Origin: Halorubrum persicum
GTDB taxonomy: Archaea; Halobacteriota; Halobacteria; Halobacteriales; Haloferacaceae
DNA: 64,000 nt
Assembly (NCBI RefSeq): GCF_002727125.1
Contig: NZ_NHOA01000029.1
Location: 1-64,000, forward strand
Direction of reading: 5' to 3'
A program made the translations under genes and the position numbers. Below, piece after piece: positions 4,880 to 63,382 of this stretch. Under the pieces are notes generated by a model. That model saw nothing but the letters and a program-made list of their open reading frames with translations. It made no database searches and was not told the DNA's origin. Position 1 is the stretch's first letter, and every line of letters starts with the position of its first letter.

Positions 4880-4896
4880 GACTCTGTTGAACTCCT
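4880..4896. repeat. Degenerate IS6-type terminal repeat
   Basis: The 17-mer GACTCTGTTGAACTCCT matches 15 of 17 bases of the terminal repeat of the element at 15669-17983. No partner end or target duplication was found nearby, so it is probably the scar of an older related insertion, or chance. Confidence 0.4.
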
Positions 4897-15660: not shown

Positions 15661-15668
15661 AAATCATC
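15661..15668. repeat. Target-site duplication, left copy
   Basis: AAATCATC directly precedes the left terminal repeat and is repeated exactly at 17984-17991 after the right one. Confidence 0.85.
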
Positions 15669-15685
15669 GGCTCTGTTGAAATCCT
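15669..15685 (+). repeat. Left terminal inverted repeat
   Basis: GGCTCTGTTGAAATCCT is identical to the reverse complement of 17967-17983. Identity stops after base 17. Confidence 0.85.
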
Positions 15686-15897
15686 TCGGAAATGATACAT
15701 TCTGACCGGCCGTGGTCAGGACAGGGAACTCACGCACGGTCAATCACGCTGACTTACGCGCTACCTGTCAGTAGCGCCGTGCGAGATACAGAGGATGTAT
15801 CTAGCGGTCTCACTCGTACCGAGGCAATCCTCAGTGAAGAGGCATGCCGGTGACCTATCACAGGTTGAGCAACGAGAGAGCCACTGAGCCGGACGGT

Positions 15898-17772
15898 TTA
15901 ATTCACGCTCTTGGAGAGTTCGGCTCCAGCTTTGAACTTCACGTCGTCTGAGGCATTTATGTCCGTAAAGTGGAGAAGTCGCCCTTGTGCAGACATAGTC
16001 ACAGGCACATCAGCGGCAGCCGCCTCCTCTTGCTGGTCAGCATCTCTTCCCGGCTTCTTCCGAAGGATGATGTCTTCTCCTTCTGCTTCTGAGAGGACCC
16101 CTTCGGCAACCGCATCCGAAACTGTCCCATCGAACAGTCTCGCCCCTCGTCGCTCTCGGTCATCCGACAGGCGACGAGGCATCATGTCACTGTACCCATC
16201 TCCATCTAAATCACCAGCGCCAACACCGATGACTGCTGTTGGTTCTCGCACCGCCACGAGCGTGAGTGAATCCTCGTAGAGGCTGCCGTCATCGATGACC
16301 CAGCCACCTGTGTAGATGTACTGGTCGGCGTTCTTACAGCGGCTCACGTACAACAGCGCGGGGAACGGCAACGGGCACTCTGGGGGCGCGACCATAATCG
16401 GGCACACCAGCGTCGAGGTGGTCGAACCCTCCCCGAGCTCAGACCCCCAGTCGTCGAAGTCTGCGGGAGCGGACGAGGAACCGTCTGCGCTGACCGCAAG
16501 CGAGGTCTTCTTATCTGTGGCCGTCGGTGGGTCATTCACCGGATTGACCGTGACTCGTCCGTCAACGACGTGTGATTCGAGGTGAACTCCCGTGTCGACT
16601 GGGCTAGAGACCGCGGAGACGAACGGGCCCGAGTTGTACAGCGAAGTGTCGTCAGACATGAGCCCGGAAAGGCCGTTTTCACCGCCGACCGCACCGGTCT
16701 CGTAAATCGGACCGCTGCTTCCAGCTGTGGCGAAGTCGTCCTCAGAAGCCCCCCATGTGTAGACCTTCCCGCCAGTGTCACCACGTCCTGTTACGTACTC
16801 GATGATGCGGCGCGGGGTGAGCTCGTCTTTGAGTGTTGCGTCACTTCCCGGGAGGCTGGCATCAGGCACGGTAATTGTGAATTGCTCTTTGATGACTGGC
16901 GCTTCAGCGAGGTACTCGTAGAGTGCGTCGATATCGACCCCCTTGTTGTCGCCCGGCATCACCATGTCCCGGTCTTCCCCGAGGATGATTTCTCCGTCTG
17001 TATCCTTCAAGGATGATTCGAGTAGTTCGATGTCCCCTTCGACGATTCCTTGTATTTCTCGGAGAGTCTCGGTAGCGTGGTCCCACTCTCCGTTCTCGAC
17101 GTGGGCCGCCGCCTGCTGGGTCAGTTTGTCCCGTTCGTCGGCGTGTTCCCGTACAGTCACGCACACGTCGTCAGAGCAGCGTTCCAACGCGTTTTGAATG
17201 TCTCGGATGGTGTCGCCCATGTCTACGATACCCTCTCGGCCTTTGCGCGCGGAGCGCTTGCTGATGGAGTCTGCTGCGGCCTTTGTCTGAGAGAGAAGCG
17301 TATTCTCCAAGTCTAACGCAACCCAAAGAGCGTCATTGAAATCACGGTCACCTAATCCGCCGCCATCCGACCGAATCTTCGACTTATTGCTCCGACTGTT
17401 GTTGTAGTTGGCTCGGTCGGGATGAACCGTGCTCTCGTTGTAGTCGAAGCAGCAGGTGGCTGCGATAGATTGAGATGTGACCCATGCTTCGAGTTCGACT
17501 TCTCCGGAGAGTGGTCCCGATTCAGCGGTTACAGTTGGGGTTAGTTTGTACACGGTGGCTCTATTCGTCGGTGAGGGGCCAGTGTATGCGCCGATGCCTG
17601 CGAACGGTGCTGCTGGCGATGCTCCCGTGTTCGTCACGGACGATGCCACTCGATTCAGACACCCACTCAGACCACCAACCGCAACGATACCGCTCGCTGC
17701 CAGTAGCTTTCGACGGCTAATGATAGCACGTGACACAGGGTCTGCGTGACTGTCTCGTCCTCGTGAATTCAT
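15898..17772 (-). CDS. Cargo gene: large Tat lipoprotein of unknown function
   Basis: From ATG 17772 the protein has 624 residues. It starts with a Tat motif (SRRKLLAASG) and a lipobox (GLSGC), so it should be exported and anchored on the outer face of the membrane. A helical, charged stretch follows (about 150-260). Near the C-terminus GAGDLDGDGYSDMM resembles a calcium-binding FG-GAP/dockerin-type loop. I do not recognise the family. The frame is open to 17922, but the start at 17772 places the signal at the N-terminus. It is the only gene of the transposon-like element and is transcribed leftward, with AT-rich promoter-like DNA at 17795-17835. Confidence 0.75.
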   Translation of the reverse strand: MNSRGRDSHADPVSRAIISRRKLLAASGIVAVGGLSGCLNRVASSVTNTGASPAAPFAGIGAYTGPSPTNRATVYKLTPTVTAESGPLSGEVELEAWVTSQSIAATCCFDYNESTVHPDRANYNNSRSNKSKIRSDGGGLGDRDFNDALWVALDLENTLLSQTKAAADSISKRSARKGREGIVDMGDTIRDIQNALERCSDDVCVTVREHADERDKLTQQAAAHVENGEWDHATETLREIQGIVEGDIELLESSLKDTDGEIILGEDRDMVMPGDNKGVDIDALYEYLAEAPVIKEQFTITVPDASLPGSDATLKDELTPRRIIEYVTGRGDTGGKVYTWGASEDDFATAGSSGPIYETGAVGGENGLSGLMSDDTSLYNSGPFVSAVSSPVDTGVHLESHVVDGRVTVNPVNDPPTATDKKTSLAVSADGSSSAPADFDDWGSELGEGSTTSTLVCPIMVAPPECPLPFPALLYVSRCKNADQYIYTGGWVIDDGSLYEDSLTLVAVREPTAVIGVGAGDLDGDGYSDMMPRRLSDDRERRGARLFDGTVSDAVAEGVLSEAEGEDIILRKKPGRDADQQEEAAAADVPVTMSAQGRLLHFTDINASDDVKFKAGAELSKSVN

Positions 17773-17940
17773 ACTCGGATGATGGAGGAGAGGCACTATG
17801 ATAAGTATTCGTATAATTGTAAAGAGAAAAATACCGGCGGCTGGCCGACTAGCGCACTGTATCTCGCACGGGTAACTGAACCCCTCTATGGATTGGCAGA
17901 ATTCTCGACGCTCAATACGCACTCTTCAGCGACCGGCTGT

Positions 17941-17962
17941 TTCAGACAACAATATGTCTGAA
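17941..17962. repeat. Subterminal palindrome at the right end of the element
   Basis: TTCAGACA (17941-17948) and TGTCTGAA (17955-17962) form a perfect 8-bp inverted repeat with a 6-base loop, 4 bp inside the right terminal repeat. Confidence 0.6.
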
Positions 17963-17966
17963 AGAG

Positions 17967-17983
17967 AGGATTTCAACAGAGCC
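17967..17983 (-). repeat. Right terminal inverted repeat
   Basis: AGGATTTCAACAGAGCC is the exact complement of the left end at 15669-15685. Confidence 0.85.
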
Positions 17984-17991
17984 AAATCATC
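17984..17991. repeat. Target-site duplication, right copy
   Basis: AAATCATC is identical to 15661-15668. It begins right after the right terminal repeat and 13 bp before the phosphodiesterase stop codon. Confidence 0.85.
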
Positions 17992-57785: not shown

Positions 57786-58463
57786 ATGACGATCGAAGAC
57801 CGTGACGACGCGCACCTCATCACGCACGCGCTGGCGAAGGACACTCTCTCGCGGCTCCGCGACGTCGAGACCGAGCAGGTCGCCTTCCGGAAGGGGCTCG
57901 TGAAGCTCGGCCGGATCTGCGGGTACGAGATCATCGACGGCGCGATGGAGACGGAGTACGTCCCGGTGGAGACCCCGTTAGAGGAGACGACCGGCGAGCG
58001 CGTGAAAGGGCTCGACGACGTCGTCATCATCAACGTCCTCCGAGCCGCGACCCCGTTCGTCGAGGGGCTTCTCAAGGCGTTCCCGCGCGCGAAACAGGGC
58101 ATCATCTCGGCGGGGCGCGACGAGGAGGCCGGCATGACCGACGACGGCGAGTTCCCGATTACCATCGACTACGTGAAACTGCCCGAGATCCGGCCCGAGG
58201 ACACCGTGATCGTCGCGGACCCGATGCTCGCCACCGGCTCGACGATGTGCGCCGTCCTCGACCACGTCCTCACCGAGGCCGGCGACTTCGAGGACCTGTT
58301 CGTCCTCTCGGCGGTCTCGGCGCCCGACGGGCTCGTTCGCGTGAGCGAGTCGGTGCCCGAGGCCGACCTGTTGACGGTCTCCATCGACGACCGCCTCGAC
58401 GACGACGGGTTCATCCTCCCCGGGCTCGGCGACGCCGGCGACCGCGCGTTCCGGACGGTCTGA
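57786..58463 (+). CDS. upp: Uracil phosphoribosyltransferase
   Basis: This 225-residue salvage enzyme makes UMP from uracil and PRPP. The PRPP loop is in [12 protein letters not shown], and [20 protein letters not shown] and the C-terminal [16 protein letters not shown] (uracil-binding) are typical. It is leaderless and alone. Confidence 0.93.
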
Positions 58464-58553
58464 GGCGACGACCGGGGCGGCCGGCCGTCGTGACACTCGT
58501 CGCGACCGCCGCCGTGACCGGCCACCGCGGTGATCGCTGCGAACGCCGACGTA

Positions 58554-58560
58554 CTTTTAA
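58554..58560 (+). promoter_or_regulatory. TATA box of the small zinc-finger gene
   Basis: CTTTTAA lies 25-31 nt before ATG 58585. Confidence 0.5.
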
Positions 58561-58584
58561 GAGTCGCCCGCGCGACCGATCCGT

Positions 58585-58803
58585 ATGAGCGACGCGCCGA
58601 CGACCGAGCCCTGCGACGGCTGCGGCGACCCCACCACGGACGCGCTCGCGCGCGTCGTCCGGCTGAGCGTCGACCGGGCGAACATCGACACCCAGCGGCT
58701 CTGCCCCGACTGCTTCGCCGAGTGGATCCAGCGCTATCAGGACCGACTCGGCTCGGGCCCCAGCGACGGCGACAGCGACAGCTCCGAGATCATCGTCGAC
58801 TGA
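58585..58803 (+). CDS. Small zinc-finger protein
   Basis: The protein has 72 residues with CDGC and CPDC pairs (four-cysteine zinc site), an amphipathic helix (FAEWIQRYQDRL) and an acidic tail ending SSEIIVD. It resembles the haloarchaeal zinc-finger mini-proteins, some of which affect swarming or stress in model species. The function here is unknown. Confidence 0.7.
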   Translation: MSDAPTTEPCDGCGDPTTDALARVVRLSVDRANIDTQRLCPDCFAEWIQRYQDRLGSGPSDGDSDSSEIIVD

Positions 58804-58863
58804 CGGGGCCGGCGGCGACGCCCAGACCCGGTGTTCGGACGGCAACGTCCGTCCCGACCGCCC

Positions 58864-58873
58864 GTCTTAAGCC
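58864..58873 (+). promoter_or_regulatory. TATA-like box of thrC
   Basis: GTCTTAAGCC lies 24-33 nt before ATG 58897 and supports this start over the longer frame from 58831. Confidence 0.45.
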
Positions 58874-58896
58874 CCGGCGGCACGCACGCCGACGTA

Positions 58897-60180
58897 ATGG
58901 ATCTCGCCATCGACGCCCCGACTCCGACGGCGCCCGACTGCGCCGACGACGGGGCCTGGCTCGCCTGTATCGCGTGCGACGAGACGTTCGCCCCCTTCGA
59001 GGAGGTGCGCTACACCTGCGACGAGTGCGACAGCCTGCTGGAAGTCCGGTACGCGGACCCGCCGACCTTCGCCGAGTTCGGCGACGGCGCCCCCTCCGAG
59101 GGCCCCGACCGCGGCGTCTGGCGCTACCGCGAGGCGCTTCCGTTCGACCTGGGCGTGACGTTGCCCGAGGGCGACACCCCGCTTCACCGCGTCCCCCGGA
59201 TCGAGGAGTCGGTCGGCGTCGAGGCGCTCCGGATCAAACACGAGGGGATGAACCCCACAGGGTCGTTCAAGGACCGCGGGATGACGATCGGCGTCCGGGT
59301 CGCCAAGGAGCTCGGCGTCGGCGCGCTCGCCTGCGCGTCCACCGGCAACACCTCCGCCGCGCTCGCGGCCTACGGCGGTCGGGGCGGGATGGAGACGCTC
59401 GTGCTCCTCCCCGAGGGGAAGGTGGCCGCGGGGAAGATCGCGCAGGCGAGCCTCCACGGGGCCCGCATCCTCGAAGTCGACGGCAACTTCGACGCCTGCC
59501 TCGACATCGTACAGGAGCTGGCCGCCCGCGGCGAGGCGTACCTGCTCAACTCGCTGAACCCGTTCCGCTTGGAGGGACAGAAGACGATCGGCTTCGAGAT
59601 CTTAGAGGAGTTCCGCGACGACTACGGCGACTTCCCGGACCGGATCGTCCTCCCGGTCGGCAACGCGGGCAACACGTCGGCCCTCTACAAGGGGTTCCGC
59701 GAGCTGGTCCAGTCGGGCGCGCTCGACGTCGACGACGTGCCGAAGCTCACCGGCGTCCAGGCGGCGGGCGCCGCGCCGATGGTCGAGGCGGTCGAGGAGG
59801 GGAACGACGAGATTCGTCGGTGGGAGGAGGTCGAGACGCGCGCGACCGCGATCCGCATCGGCAACCCGGTCAACGCGCCGAAGGCGCTCCCCGGTATCCG
59901 GAACACGGGCGGCACGGCGGTCGCCGTCAGCGACGACGAGATCACCGACGCCCAGCGCGACCTCGCCGAGGAGGGGGTCGGCGTCGAGCCCGCGTCCGCC
60001 GCGAGCCTCGCCGGACTCAGGAAGCTCCGCCGCGAGGGCGTCGTCGAGGACGACGAGCAGGTCGTCTGCCTGACGACGGGACACCTGTTAAAGGACCCCG
60101 ACGCCGCCTACGAGGCCGGCAGCGACCCCGAACCCGTCCCGAACGACGTCGACGCGGTCGTCGAGCACTTACACGAGTGA
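58897..60180 (+). CDS. thrC: Threonine synthase
   Basis: This 427-residue PLP enzyme turns O-phosphohomoserine into threonine. The N-terminus carries a zinc-ribbon-like part (CIACDETF and CDECDSLLEV). The PLP lysine is K125 in PTGSFKDRG, and the phosphate loop is in VGNAGNTSALYKG. It is a plant/archaeal type threonine synthase. It converges on serA, the two stops 53 bp apart. Confidence 0.93.
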   Translation: MDLAIDAPTPTAPDCADDGAWLACIACDETFAPFEEVRYTCDECDSLLEVRYADPPTFAEFGDGAPSEGPDRGVWRYREALPFDLGVTLPEGDTPLHRVPRIEESVGVEALRIKHEGMNPTGSFKDRGMTIGVRVAKELGVGALACASTGNTSAALAAYGGRGGMETLVLLPEGKVAAGKIAQASLHGARILEVDGNFDACLDIVQELAARGEAYLLNSLNPFRLEGQKTIGFEILEEFRDDYGDFPDRIVLPVGNAGNTSALYKGFRELVQSGALDVDDVPKLTGVQAAGAAPMVEAVEEGNDEIRRWEEVETRATAIRIGNPVNAPKALPGIRNTGGTAVAVSDDEITDAQRDLAEEGVGVEPASAASLAGLRKLRREGVVEDDEQVVCLTTGHLLKDPDAAYEAGSDPEPVPNDVDAVVEHLHE

Positions 60181-60233
60181 GTTCCTCCGGGGAGCGAACG
60201 CCCCGGAGCCGCAAAATCAGGTGAGCCGAACCG

Positions 60234-61838
60234 TTACTCCGCCGCCCGCTCCTCGGCCTCATCCAGCGTGATCTCGGTGACCTCGACGACGCGGTCGTCG
60301 GCGAGCAGCGTCTCGATGGCCTCGTCCGGCACGTCCTGGTCGAGGTTGTAGACGGTGAGCGCCTCGCCGCCCTGCGTCTCGCGGGCGTTGTACATCCCGG
60401 CGATGTTCACGTCGTAGTCGCCGAGCACGGTGCCGATGAGCCCGATGACGCCCGGCTCGTCGGTGTTGCGCGCGACCAGCATGTTGCCGTACGGGACCGC
60501 GTCGACGCGGAACCCGTCGATCCGGACGATTCGCGGGTCCTCGCCCGCGAACAGGGTCCCCTCGACCGCGATCGAGTCCTCGCCGTTGTGAACGGTGACG
60601 CGCACCAGGCTCTGGAAGTCGTCGGTCTGTCTGGTCTTCGACTCGGTCACGTCGATGCCGCGCTCCTCGGCGAGCCGGGGCGCGTTCACCGAGTTCACCT
60701 GCCACTCCAGCGGCTCGAAGACGCCCTTCAGCGCGCTCGCGGTGACGAGCTCCACGTCCTCCTCGGCGATGTCGCCCTCGTAGGTCGCCTCCACTTCGGT
60801 GATGCGACCGTCGAGCAGCTGGGCGGCGACCTTCCCGGCGGTCTCCGCCACGGCGATGTACGGCTTGATCCGGGGGAACGCGGTCTCGTCGACGGAGGGG
60901 GCGTTGAGCGCGGTCAGGACGGGCTCGTCGTCGAACGCCGCGAGCACCGCCTCCGCGGTGTCGACCGCGACGTTCTCCTGTGCGGCCTCGGTCGAGGCGC
61001 CGAGGTGCGGGGTCAAGACGATCTCCTCGACATCGAGCAGCGGCGAGTCCTGCGAGAGCGGCTCCTCGGCGAACGAGTCGAGCGCGGCGCCCGCGAGGAC
61101 GCCGTCGTCGACCGCCGCCGCGAGCGCGTCCTCGTCGACGATGCCGCCGCGGGCGCAGTTGATGAGGTAGCCGCCCTCCAGCTGCGCGAGCTCGTCCTCG
61201 CCGATCATCCCCTCGGTCTCGGGGAGGAGCGGGGTGTGGACCGTCGCGAAGTCGCCGCGGGCGAGCGCCTCGTGGAGGTCCTCGACGAGCTCGGCGCCGA
61301 GGCGGTCGGCGCGCTCCTCGGAGATGTACGGGTCGTAGACGACGAGGTCCATGCCGAGCGAGTCGAGGCGCTTGGCGACCTCCTGCCCGACGCGACCGAG
61401 GCCGACGATGGTGAGCGTCTTGTTGTTCACCTCGGTGCCGAGGAACTCGCCTTTCGCCCACTCGCCGCCGAGGAGGCGACCGTGGGCCTGCGGGATCGAA
61501 CGCGCGACGGCGAACGTCATCGCGACCGTGTGCTCGGCGGCGGCCCGGACGTTCCCCTCGGGCGCGTTGGCGACGATGACGCCGTGGTCGGTGGCGGCCT
61601 CGATGTCGATGTTGTCGACGCCGATGCCGGCGCGCCCGACGATGACGAGCTCGGCGGCGGCCTCGAACACCGCCTCGTTCACGTCGGTTCCGGAGCGAAC
61701 GATCAGCGCGTTGGCGTCGCTCACGGCGTCGAGCAGGTCGTCGCCCTCGATCTCGTAGTCCGTTACGACCTCGTGGCCGGCGTCTCGGAGTCGGTCCAAC
61801 CCCGCGTCCGCGATGGGGTCGGTCACGAGTACCTTCAT
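60234..61838 (-). CDS. serA: D-3-phosphoglycerate dehydrogenase
   Basis: This 534-residue enzyme oxidises 3-phosphoglycerate, the first step of serine synthesis. An NAD-binding Rossmann loop (VGLGRVGQEVAKRL), catalytic segments NCARGGIVDE and LTPHLGAST, an intervening ASB domain (about 315-450) and a C-terminal ACT domain (about 455-528) are seen. The long form with ACT domain is expected to be regulated by serine. I chose ATG 61838 because GGTTAACC (complement 61862-61869) is about 27 nt upstream; ATG 61850 would be too close to it. Confidence 0.92.
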   Translation of the reverse strand: MKVLVTDPIADAGLDRLRDAGHEVVTDYEIEGDDLLDAVSDANALIVRSGTDVNEAVFEAAAELVIVGRAGIGVDNIDIEAATDHGVIVANAPEGNVRAAAEHTVAMTFAVARSIPQAHGRLLGGEWAKGEFLGTEVNNKTLTIVGLGRVGQEVAKRLDSLGMDLVVYDPYISEERADRLGAELVEDLHEALARGDFATVHTPLLPETEGMIGEDELAQLEGGYLINCARGGIVDEDALAAAVDDGVLAGAALDSFAEEPLSQDSPLLDVEEIVLTPHLGASTEAAQENVAVDTAEAVLAAFDDEPVLTALNAPSVDETAFPRIKPYIAVAETAGKVAAQLLDGRITEVEATYEGDIAEEDVELVTASALKGVFEPLEWQVNSVNAPRLAEERGIDVTESKTRQTDDFQSLVRVTVHNGEDSIAVEGTLFAGEDPRIVRIDGFRVDAVPYGNMLVARNTDEPGVIGLIGTVLGDYDVNIAGMYNARETQGGEALTVYNLDQDVPDEAIETLLADDRVVEVTEITLDEAEERAAE

Positions 61839-62037
61839 GGGCGTTTGCACCGGCGGCGCGAGGTTAACCCTTTCCTCATCGCTCCGTTTTGCCGGGTGAG
61901 ACGATCCGTGATCGTGGATTATGAACCCCTCTGTTTCGGGTGGAGACCCCTCGTTCGTGGGTACCGATCGCCGAGTCCGAACGCGCCCGTCGGTCCGCGT
62001 TTCTCTCAGTCCGGATCGCGCCGCCGGGCGGTACTCC

Positions 62038-62047
62038 CTTTTATATT
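62038..62047 (+). promoter_or_regulatory. TATA box of the CNNM/CorC-type gene
   Basis: CTTTTATATT lies 19-28 nt before ATG 62066 and excludes the longer frame from 61940. Confidence 0.5.
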
Positions 62048-62065
62048 CGGACGTGTGGTCGGGGT

Positions 62066-63382
62066 ATGGACATCACGATCGCGTTCGCCGGCGTCGGCGC
62101 CATCCTCGTGTTGACGGGGATAAGCGCCTTCTTCTCGAGCTCTGAGCTGGCCGTGTTCTCCGTCCCGTCGCACCGCGTCGACTCGCTGCTCGCCGCCGAC
62201 GCGCCCGGCGCGCGGGCGCTGTCGGCGCTCCGGGGCGACTCGCACCGCTTCCTCGTCACCACCCTCGTGAGCAACAACGTCGCCAACATCGCGGCCGCGT
62301 CGGTGGCGACCGCGGTGTTCGTGCGGTTCGGCTTCTCCGGGGGAGAGGCGGCGACGGGGTCGACGCTCGTCACCTCCGTGTTCGTCATCGTCTTCGGCGA
62401 GATCGCGCCGAAGTCCTACGCGGTGGCGAACGCGGAGCGGCACGCGCTCCGCGTCTCGCGGCCCGTGGTCGCGCTCCAGCGCGTCATGCGTCCCGTGCTG
62501 TACGTGTTCGAGGCGCTCTCCGGGATCGTCAACCGGTTTACCGGCGGTGAGTCCGCCATCGAGTCGTACCTCACGCGCGAGGAGATCGAGACGCTCGTGC
62601 TCTCTGGCGAGGCGGGGGGCGCGCTCGACCCCGAGGAGGGGGCGATGATCCGCGGCGTCCTCGATCTGGAGTCGATCCGCGTGTCGACGGTGATGGTCCC
62701 GCGGACCGACATGGTCGCGCTGCCGGACACCGCCACGCCGGCCGAGGCGGCCTCGACCGCCGCCGCGGAGGGCGTCACGCGGATGCCGGTGTACGGCGAG
62801 AACCGGGACGACGTGGTCGGCATCCTCGACCTGCGCGACGCGGTCGCCGCCGACGAGCGCGGCGAGTCCCTCGCGAGCGCGCTCCGCGAGCCGACCTTCG
62901 TCCCGGAGACCCAACCGGTCGACGAGCTGTTCGCGACGATGCGGGCGAGCGACCTCCGGATGGCCGTCGTCGTCGACGAGTTCGGCGCGGTGGTGGGGAT
63001 CGTGACCCTCGAGGACGTGGTCGAGGAGGTCGTCGGCGAACTGGTCGGGCGGTGGGAGACCGACCACGTCGACGTGGTCGCGCCCGACGCCGCGGTGGCG
63101 CACGGGTGGACCACCGTCGCGCACCTCAACGAGACGCTCGGGCTGGCCCTCCCGATCGACGGCGGCACCGGGACCGTCGCGGGGCTGGTCACACAACAGC
63201 TCGGCCGGGTCCCGACCGAAGGCGACCGCGTCCAGATCGGCGACGTGACGCTCTCGGTCACGGACGCGACCGCGACGCGGGTAACGCGAGTCCGCGTCGA
63301 ACATCCGGGGATCGCAGAGGGAGTCGAGACCGAAGGGGACGGTGAGCCGGGGAGAAGCGCTGCCAGCGACGGCGTCGAGTGA
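62066..63382 (+). CDS. CNNM/CorC-type membrane protein (DUF21-CBS-CorC)
   Basis: This 438-residue protein of the hemolysin-C/CorC family has a DUF21 membrane domain of about four helices (about 1-170), a CBS pair (about 200-320) and a CorC/HlyC-type C-terminal domain (about 330-415). The DUF21 part has FFSSSELAVFSV and the highly typical FGEIAPKSYAVANAER. It is linked to magnesium or cobalt homeostasis; CBS domains sense nucleotides. An acidic tail closes the chain. Its promoter looks leaderless. Confidence 0.88.
   Translation: MDITIAFAGVGAILVLTGISAFFSSSELAVFSVPSHRVDSLLAADAPGARALSALRGDSHRFLVTTLVSNNVANIAAASVATAVFVRFGFSGGEAATGSTLVTSVFVIVFGEIAPKSYAVANAERHALRVSRPVVALQRVMRPVLYVFEALSGIVNRFTGGESAIESYLTREEIETLVLSGEAGGALDPEEGAMIRGVLDLESIRVSTVMVPRTDMVALPDTATPAEAASTAAAEGVTRMPVYGENRDDVVGILDLRDAVAADERGESLASALREPTFVPETQPVDELFATMRASDLRMAVVVDEFGAVVGIVTLEDVVEEVVGELVGRWETDHVDVVAPDAAVAHGWTTVAHLNETLGLALPIDGGTGTVAGLVTQQLGRVPTEGDRVQIGDVTLSVTDATATRVTRVRVEHPGIAEGVETEGDGEPGRSAASDGVE

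Follow-up and report, generated by a model that had tools for sequence, protein, structure and literature searches.

The 2,315-bp unit inserted in Halorubrum persicum is very probably a mobile insertion cassette (MIC), one of a haloarchaeal pool of such units that would be moved in trans by an IS5-family transposase. It has inverted ends of an IS family, a passenger gene and no transposase, its 8-bp duplication matches that of the putative donor IS in length, and its site is empty in relatives. We found the unit in the first 64,000 nucleotides of contig NZ_NHOA01000029.1, hereafter the window, in a draft genome of 158 contigs. The features of the unit are given in Table 1.

Table 1. Features of the cassette, in window positions.
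Feature	Position	Strand	Basis or remark
Target duplication AAATCATC, left copy	15661..15668	.	Direct reading
Terminal inverted repeat, left, 17 bp, GGCTCTGTTGAAATCCT	15669..15685	+	Direct reading and end search
Subterminal stretch, left	15686..15730	+	Common to MITEs and cassettes of the same genome; resembles the transposase-start end of the IS; blastn matches (query 8-70) at several other ends, plus end comparison
Inner remnant of another (third) end type, GTGCGAGATACAGAGGATGTATC	15779..15803	.	Start of the core in common with the H. californiense unit
Passenger gene, 624-aa Tat lipoprotein	15898..17772	-	ORFs; without a curated family; dN/dS 0.21-0.43
Inner remnant of another (third) end type, right, reverse complement GTGCGAGATACAGTGCGCTAGTCGGCCA	17842..17869	.	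End of the core in common with the H. californiense unit
Subterminal stretch, right	17913..17966	-	Matches the transposase-distal end of IS5-type elements and MITE right ends; 79-86% over about 70 bp to many ends (blastn), plus end comparison
Terminal inverted repeat, right, 17 bp, AGGATTTCAACAGAGCC	17967..17983	-	Direct reading and end search
Target duplication AAATCATC, right copy	17984..17991	.	Direct reading; empty site in relatives

Direct reading confirmed the perfect 17-bp inverted ends and the exact 8-bp duplication (AAATCATC) reported by an earlier sequence-only reading. That reading had also described a complete, non-autonomous, passenger-carrying unit with one lipoprotein gene, and this description held: neither the ORFs, a domain search nor tblastn with an IS5 transposase revealed a transposase inside the unit. 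Across the whole 64-kb window the unit is the single inverted-repeat pair, whether of 17-mers or even 12-mers, that has an exact 8-bp flanking repeat at 0.3-6 kb spacing. No such flanked pair occurred in 20 mononucleotide shuffles of the window, even with 12-mers. When up to 3 mismatches were allowed, the genome held 53 matches to the end, compared with 1 for a reversed-pattern control. A longer enclosing element, with the ends belonging to a larger unit that has its own transposase, was rejected as no second end pair was found inside the window with up to 4 mismatches. Elsewhere in the window, a lone unpaired copy of the end with 2 mismatches (GACTCTGTTGAACTCCT) lies at 4880-4896 and is possibly a relic. 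Another perfect 17-bp inverted pair (TCCTCGACCACGTCCTC), at 58255-63027, has no flanking repeat and probably reflects chance or coding repeats.

Next to the unit itself, the insertion site is informative. In eight congeners (G397, G290, G302, G398, G320, G236, G364 and G068) the joined flanks align contiguously and the unit is absent, so the empty site sought in close relatives was indeed found. In every case the genes on either side are those that flank the unit, one for an ABC-type sugar-binding protein and one of glycerophosphodiesterase type (names read from ORFs). The intergenic stretch around the site is only moderately conserved, and the closest relative (L206) aligns through it gap-free. 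Eight contiguous empty sites between the same neighbours indicate that the unit came into this lineage by insertion. They also bear on the reading of the segment as a normal, fixed part of the chromosome whose border repeats are coincidental or unrelated and whose gene spread solely by recombination. Lipoprotein homologues lacking detectable ends do exist elsewhere, but perfect ends bounded by an exact 8-bp duplication and empty sites in eight congeners make a fixed region extremely improbable. A paralogous copy of the insertion locus is present in the same genome (G000:C33:66916-68858, or L061:6916-8858), its flanks 88% and 85% identical. At a nearly identical intergenic spot it holds another unit, of 821 bp, which has ends of this kind and a HalOD1-domain ORF and for which no clear duplication was seen.

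A candidate for the mobilising transposase is encoded in the same genome. Contig C52 (78267-79477) carries a complete 1,211-bp IS whose ends are identical to those of the window unit at 17/17 positions and which is flanked by its own duplication, ACTATTTC. Its open transposase gene encodes 273 aa, assigned to the IS5 family by NCBIfam NF033579 (220 bits against a cut-off of 140) and to DDE_Tnp_1 by Pfam. Plasmid annotations of close relatives likewise read IS5 family. The IS may belong to the ISH1 subgroup, with which its 8-bp duplication would fit. Among the units checked in other haloarchaea, ten further transposase-bearing units have the same ends with exact 8-bp duplications, and in nearly all these transposase-bearing units the transposase starts 53 bp inside one end. 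From the identical ends and the equal duplication length we infer that the C52 transposase may act in trans on the window unit.

The ends had previously been attributed to the IS6 family, as those of a non-autonomous IS6/IS26-type element. This misreading is understandable since IS6 ends likewise start with GG, contain the cTGTt motif and give 8-bp repeats (PMC7986276), and IS6-type transposases do occur in the genome. The IS6-type elements there with resolvable inverted ends are, however, about 690 bp long and end in GTGTTCAGATAA(G), whilst the element found with ends identical to those of the window unit carries the IS5-family transposase of C52, not the IS6 transposase that was looked for. 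In three more distant IS5 relatives in the genome the ends read GGCTGTGTTGAATCGC, similar to those of the window unit, and the 8-bp duplications are exact. An IS6 derivative was thus rejected as very unlikely, and the IS5-driven cassette remains the preferred reading. A different possibility is that the unit is a decayed relic, formerly an IS with a passenger, which became immobile when its transposase was deleted. Units with a truncated transposase and an intact passenger exist (L177 and L182), so that path is real, but the window unit has perfect ends, a perfect duplication and no trace of a transposase, and the genome does have an intact transposase gene between identical ends. We consider an immobile relic unlikely; a relic origin is in any case compatible with present mobility in trans.

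The 17-bp end is widespread. With up to 1 mismatch it was found in 296 of 392 sampled haloarchaeal genomes, compared with 0 of 392 for the reversed control. A large but non-exhaustive sample of fetched regions and plasmid records, partly drawn from listings that favour close pairs, yielded 60 distinct units that combine these ends with a 7-8/8 duplication, which is exact in 50. They span plain ISs, passenger-bearing ISs, MITEs and units that lack a transposase, each of the last with a different gene. A less biased census of seven genomes took nearest convergent ends 0.3-4 kb apart, and 22 of the 35 pairs had a 7-8/8 duplication, where about 0.013 would be expected by chance. The units with a duplication comprised 4 with this IS5 transposase, 8 MITEs of at most 0.5 kb and 10 others of 0.5-3.4 kb without this IS5 transposase, although several of these ten contain only ORFs without family matches and may not all hold genes. 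The remaining 13 of 35 pairs showed no duplication, as expected of decayed, recombined or unrelated end pairs. Every transposase found in units with these ends is of the IS5 family, save an unrelated DDE transposase in L252. The proposed search for 17-mer pairs across haloarchaeal genomes returned many units with diverse genes between the ends, and the rarity implied at first reading gives way to a window unit that is one of many with different cargos.

Amongst the exact duplications, the first position was a purine in 40/50 and the last a pyrimidine in 43/50, and the sequences were 63% A+T. These biases hint at a target preference of the transposase. Two 1,471-bp units in one genome, L255 and L256 (G071:C1:805523-806993 and 1209444-1210914), have reciprocal reverse-complement flanks (TATCGAAT/GGTTATAA and ATTCGATA/TTATAACC), the pattern expected if the roughly 400 kb separating them had been inverted by recombination between the two oppositely oriented copies. 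In some draft contigs ends are doubled about 90 bp apart (L195, G320:C39; L196, G219:C57). These doubled ends, which in L195 lie beside N bases, may be an assembly artefact able to fake or hide units.

The cargo of the window unit is a protein of 624 aa (Met counted), with the twin-arginine motif SRRKLLAASG and the lipobox LSGC. It reached no curated family, its Pfam hints to FG-GAP and cadherin-like domains being sub-threshold, and profile search returned no relative in the PDB. AlphaFold2 modelling with six homologues gave a mean pLDDT of 30, too low for the model to be of use. Between four copies of the gene dN/dS was 0.21-0.43, indicating purifying selection. The passenger is thus a predicted secreted lipoprotein gene kept under purifying selection.

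The same cargo was found in a second, independently inserted unit of another haloarchaeon. In Halorubrum californiense (L105, the same as L116/L190) a protein of 80% identity is encoded by a unit of 2,185 bp, which has these ends and an exact duplication of its own, AGATTACT, at a different target from that of the window unit. In halophilic archaeon SHRA6 (L106) a 69%-identical protein lies in a 5.4-kb composite with the duplication TCAATTCC, which also holds a second lipoprotein gene with a copper-binding domain. These two and the window unit, the units with a duplication, hold just a minority of the lipoprotein homologues. Most of the others have no detectable ends; those of G352 and G328 have an end on either side without a duplication and were left out of the unit count.

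Cargos of the wider pool are diverse. Pfam families in transposase-free units with a duplication include M48 peptidase, pyridoxamine-phosphate-oxidase-like (PNPOx-like), glyoxalase, DUF1254/DUF1214, BrkB, luciferase-like monooxygenase, alpha/beta hydrolase, SBF transporter, HVO_A0114 regulator and DUF5789, with a copper-binding family in the SHRA6 composite. Units with both a transposase and a passenger carry RibD-like, redoxin, HTH_10/BAT and small lipoprotein genes, and the 3.4-kb L252 combines an FMN-dependent-dehydrogenase-family gene with its unrelated DDE transposase. Tat lipoproteins recur as cargo (window, SHRA6, L196, L197, L236 and L262). A Na+/H+ exchanger unit, L177, retains a truncated transposase and is apparently an intermediate state between transposase-bearing and transposase-free units.

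Whole-cassette copies may also reside on plasmids, for which there is partial support. An SBF/arsenic-type cassette (L199) recurs on a Haloferax lucentense plasmid with its right end exact and its left end not kept, and searches for whole plasmid copies of the M48 and luciferase-like cassettes gave end matches only. The glyoxalase cassette in Haladaptatus caseinilyticus starts exactly at a diverged end. On the Haloferax lucentense plasmid pSVX82-3 (L225), an annotated arsenic resistance gene with 91% DNA identity to the L199 cassette stops exactly at a perfect 17-bp end and adjoins a mercury(II) reductase gene.

Beyond the 17 bp, comparison by eye distinguished three end types. Two are IS-like, transposase-start and transposase-distal; the third contains an internal GTGCTGAATA...TATTCAGCAC palindrome and is characteristic of units that lack a transposase. 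On its outside the window unit carries both IS-like types, whilst its core is bordered by remnants of the third. Identity between its outer ends and those of the C52 IS stops at 17 bp and is followed by a loose subterminal likeness. The core in common with the H. californiense unit extends from about 15788 to 17871, and the outer 40-46 bp of the latter differ, indicating that this one gene has been carried by two alternative sets of ends. In L200 one IS-type end and one third-type (cassette-type) end enclose a unit with an exact duplication, indicating that both end types work together.

The SHRA6 composite suggests how genes may be captured. A smaller element forms each of its extremities, and in L107 a lipoprotein segment of 98.6% identity is missing the right-hand one, precisely at the point where that element is inserted. 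Gene entry would probably begin when two ends come to flank a gene in inverted orientation and are then mobilised as a pair. Later, the internal ends would be lost along with any transposase, and subterminal parts would be exchangeable. Capture between two inserted ends, joint movement and loss of internal ends is the simplest model, the order of events being presumed from the arrangement of present units. For movement, an IS5-family DDE transposase supplied from another locus would recognise the two IS-type ends and move the entire 2.3-kb segment with its passenger, the new site gaining an 8-bp duplication. Together with ISs (with or without passengers), MITEs and other cassettes, mostly of a single gene, the unit would thereby belong to a large haloarchaeal pool united by the 17-bp end. 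From such comparisons we infer both the capture route and the spread of the unit between species. The broadest version is an evenly balanced proposition: a genus-crossing pool of mostly single-gene cassettes with one 17-bp IS5-type end, captured, subterminally exchanged and moved in trans, would be somewhat integron-like but work via a DDE transposase.

Only some of the vehicles by which haloarchaea exchange genes are known, and the 17-bp end, given its presence in 296/392 genomes, offers a concrete and testable one. It is a candidate vehicle for enzymes, transporters (one with a plasmid-annotated arsenic resistance), regulators and surface lipoproteins. As a practical rule, annotation by transposase only overlooks transposase-free units entirely.

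In the literature searched, mostly open-access, we came across neither an archaeal MIC pool nor any haloarchaeal IS5 element with a passenger. MICs are known from Bacillus (IS231), and an IS5-driven archaeal pool would be the new element here, though an earlier description is possible. Several known systems share parts of its organisation. Transporter IS (tIS) are insertion sequences with passenger genes, and a single passenger-bearing member is listed for the IS6 family (PMC7986276). Sister units with a transposase and a passenger between the same ends (e.g. L163, L168, L181 and L196) resemble tIS, unlike the window unit, which has no transposase. The same lack separates it from haloarchaeal IS5-family ISs, with which it shares the end sequence and 8-bp duplication of its sister IS. 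Haloarchaeal MITEs include MITEHsal2 (PMC10264941) and five families in Haloquadratum, where only an ISH2-type MITE was described with a likely coding ORF (PMC3119063). They are similarly non-autonomous, with inverted ends, a target duplication and assumed movement in trans, and 0.3-0.5-kb MITEs with the ends of the window unit occur in its own genome. Haloarchaeal MITEs are, however, short and mostly non-coding, whilst the window unit carries a 1.9-kb gene; at 2,315 bp with a 624-aa product it was rejected as a member of the MITE class (under about 0.6 kb, non-coding). The nearest likeness in organisation is to the IS231-related mobile insertion cassettes of Bacillus cereus, MIC231 among them, which belong with the IS4 family, as cited in PMC2266710 and PMC6542083. 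As presented there, these also have IS-type inverted ends around passenger genes, no transposase, and movement in trans by a related IS, the last being presumed for the window unit. Unlike MIC231 as described there, the units here are archaeal and occur across haloarchaea, have ends of the IS5 family rather than the IS4 family (IS231), make an 8-bp duplication and carry many unrelated single genes.
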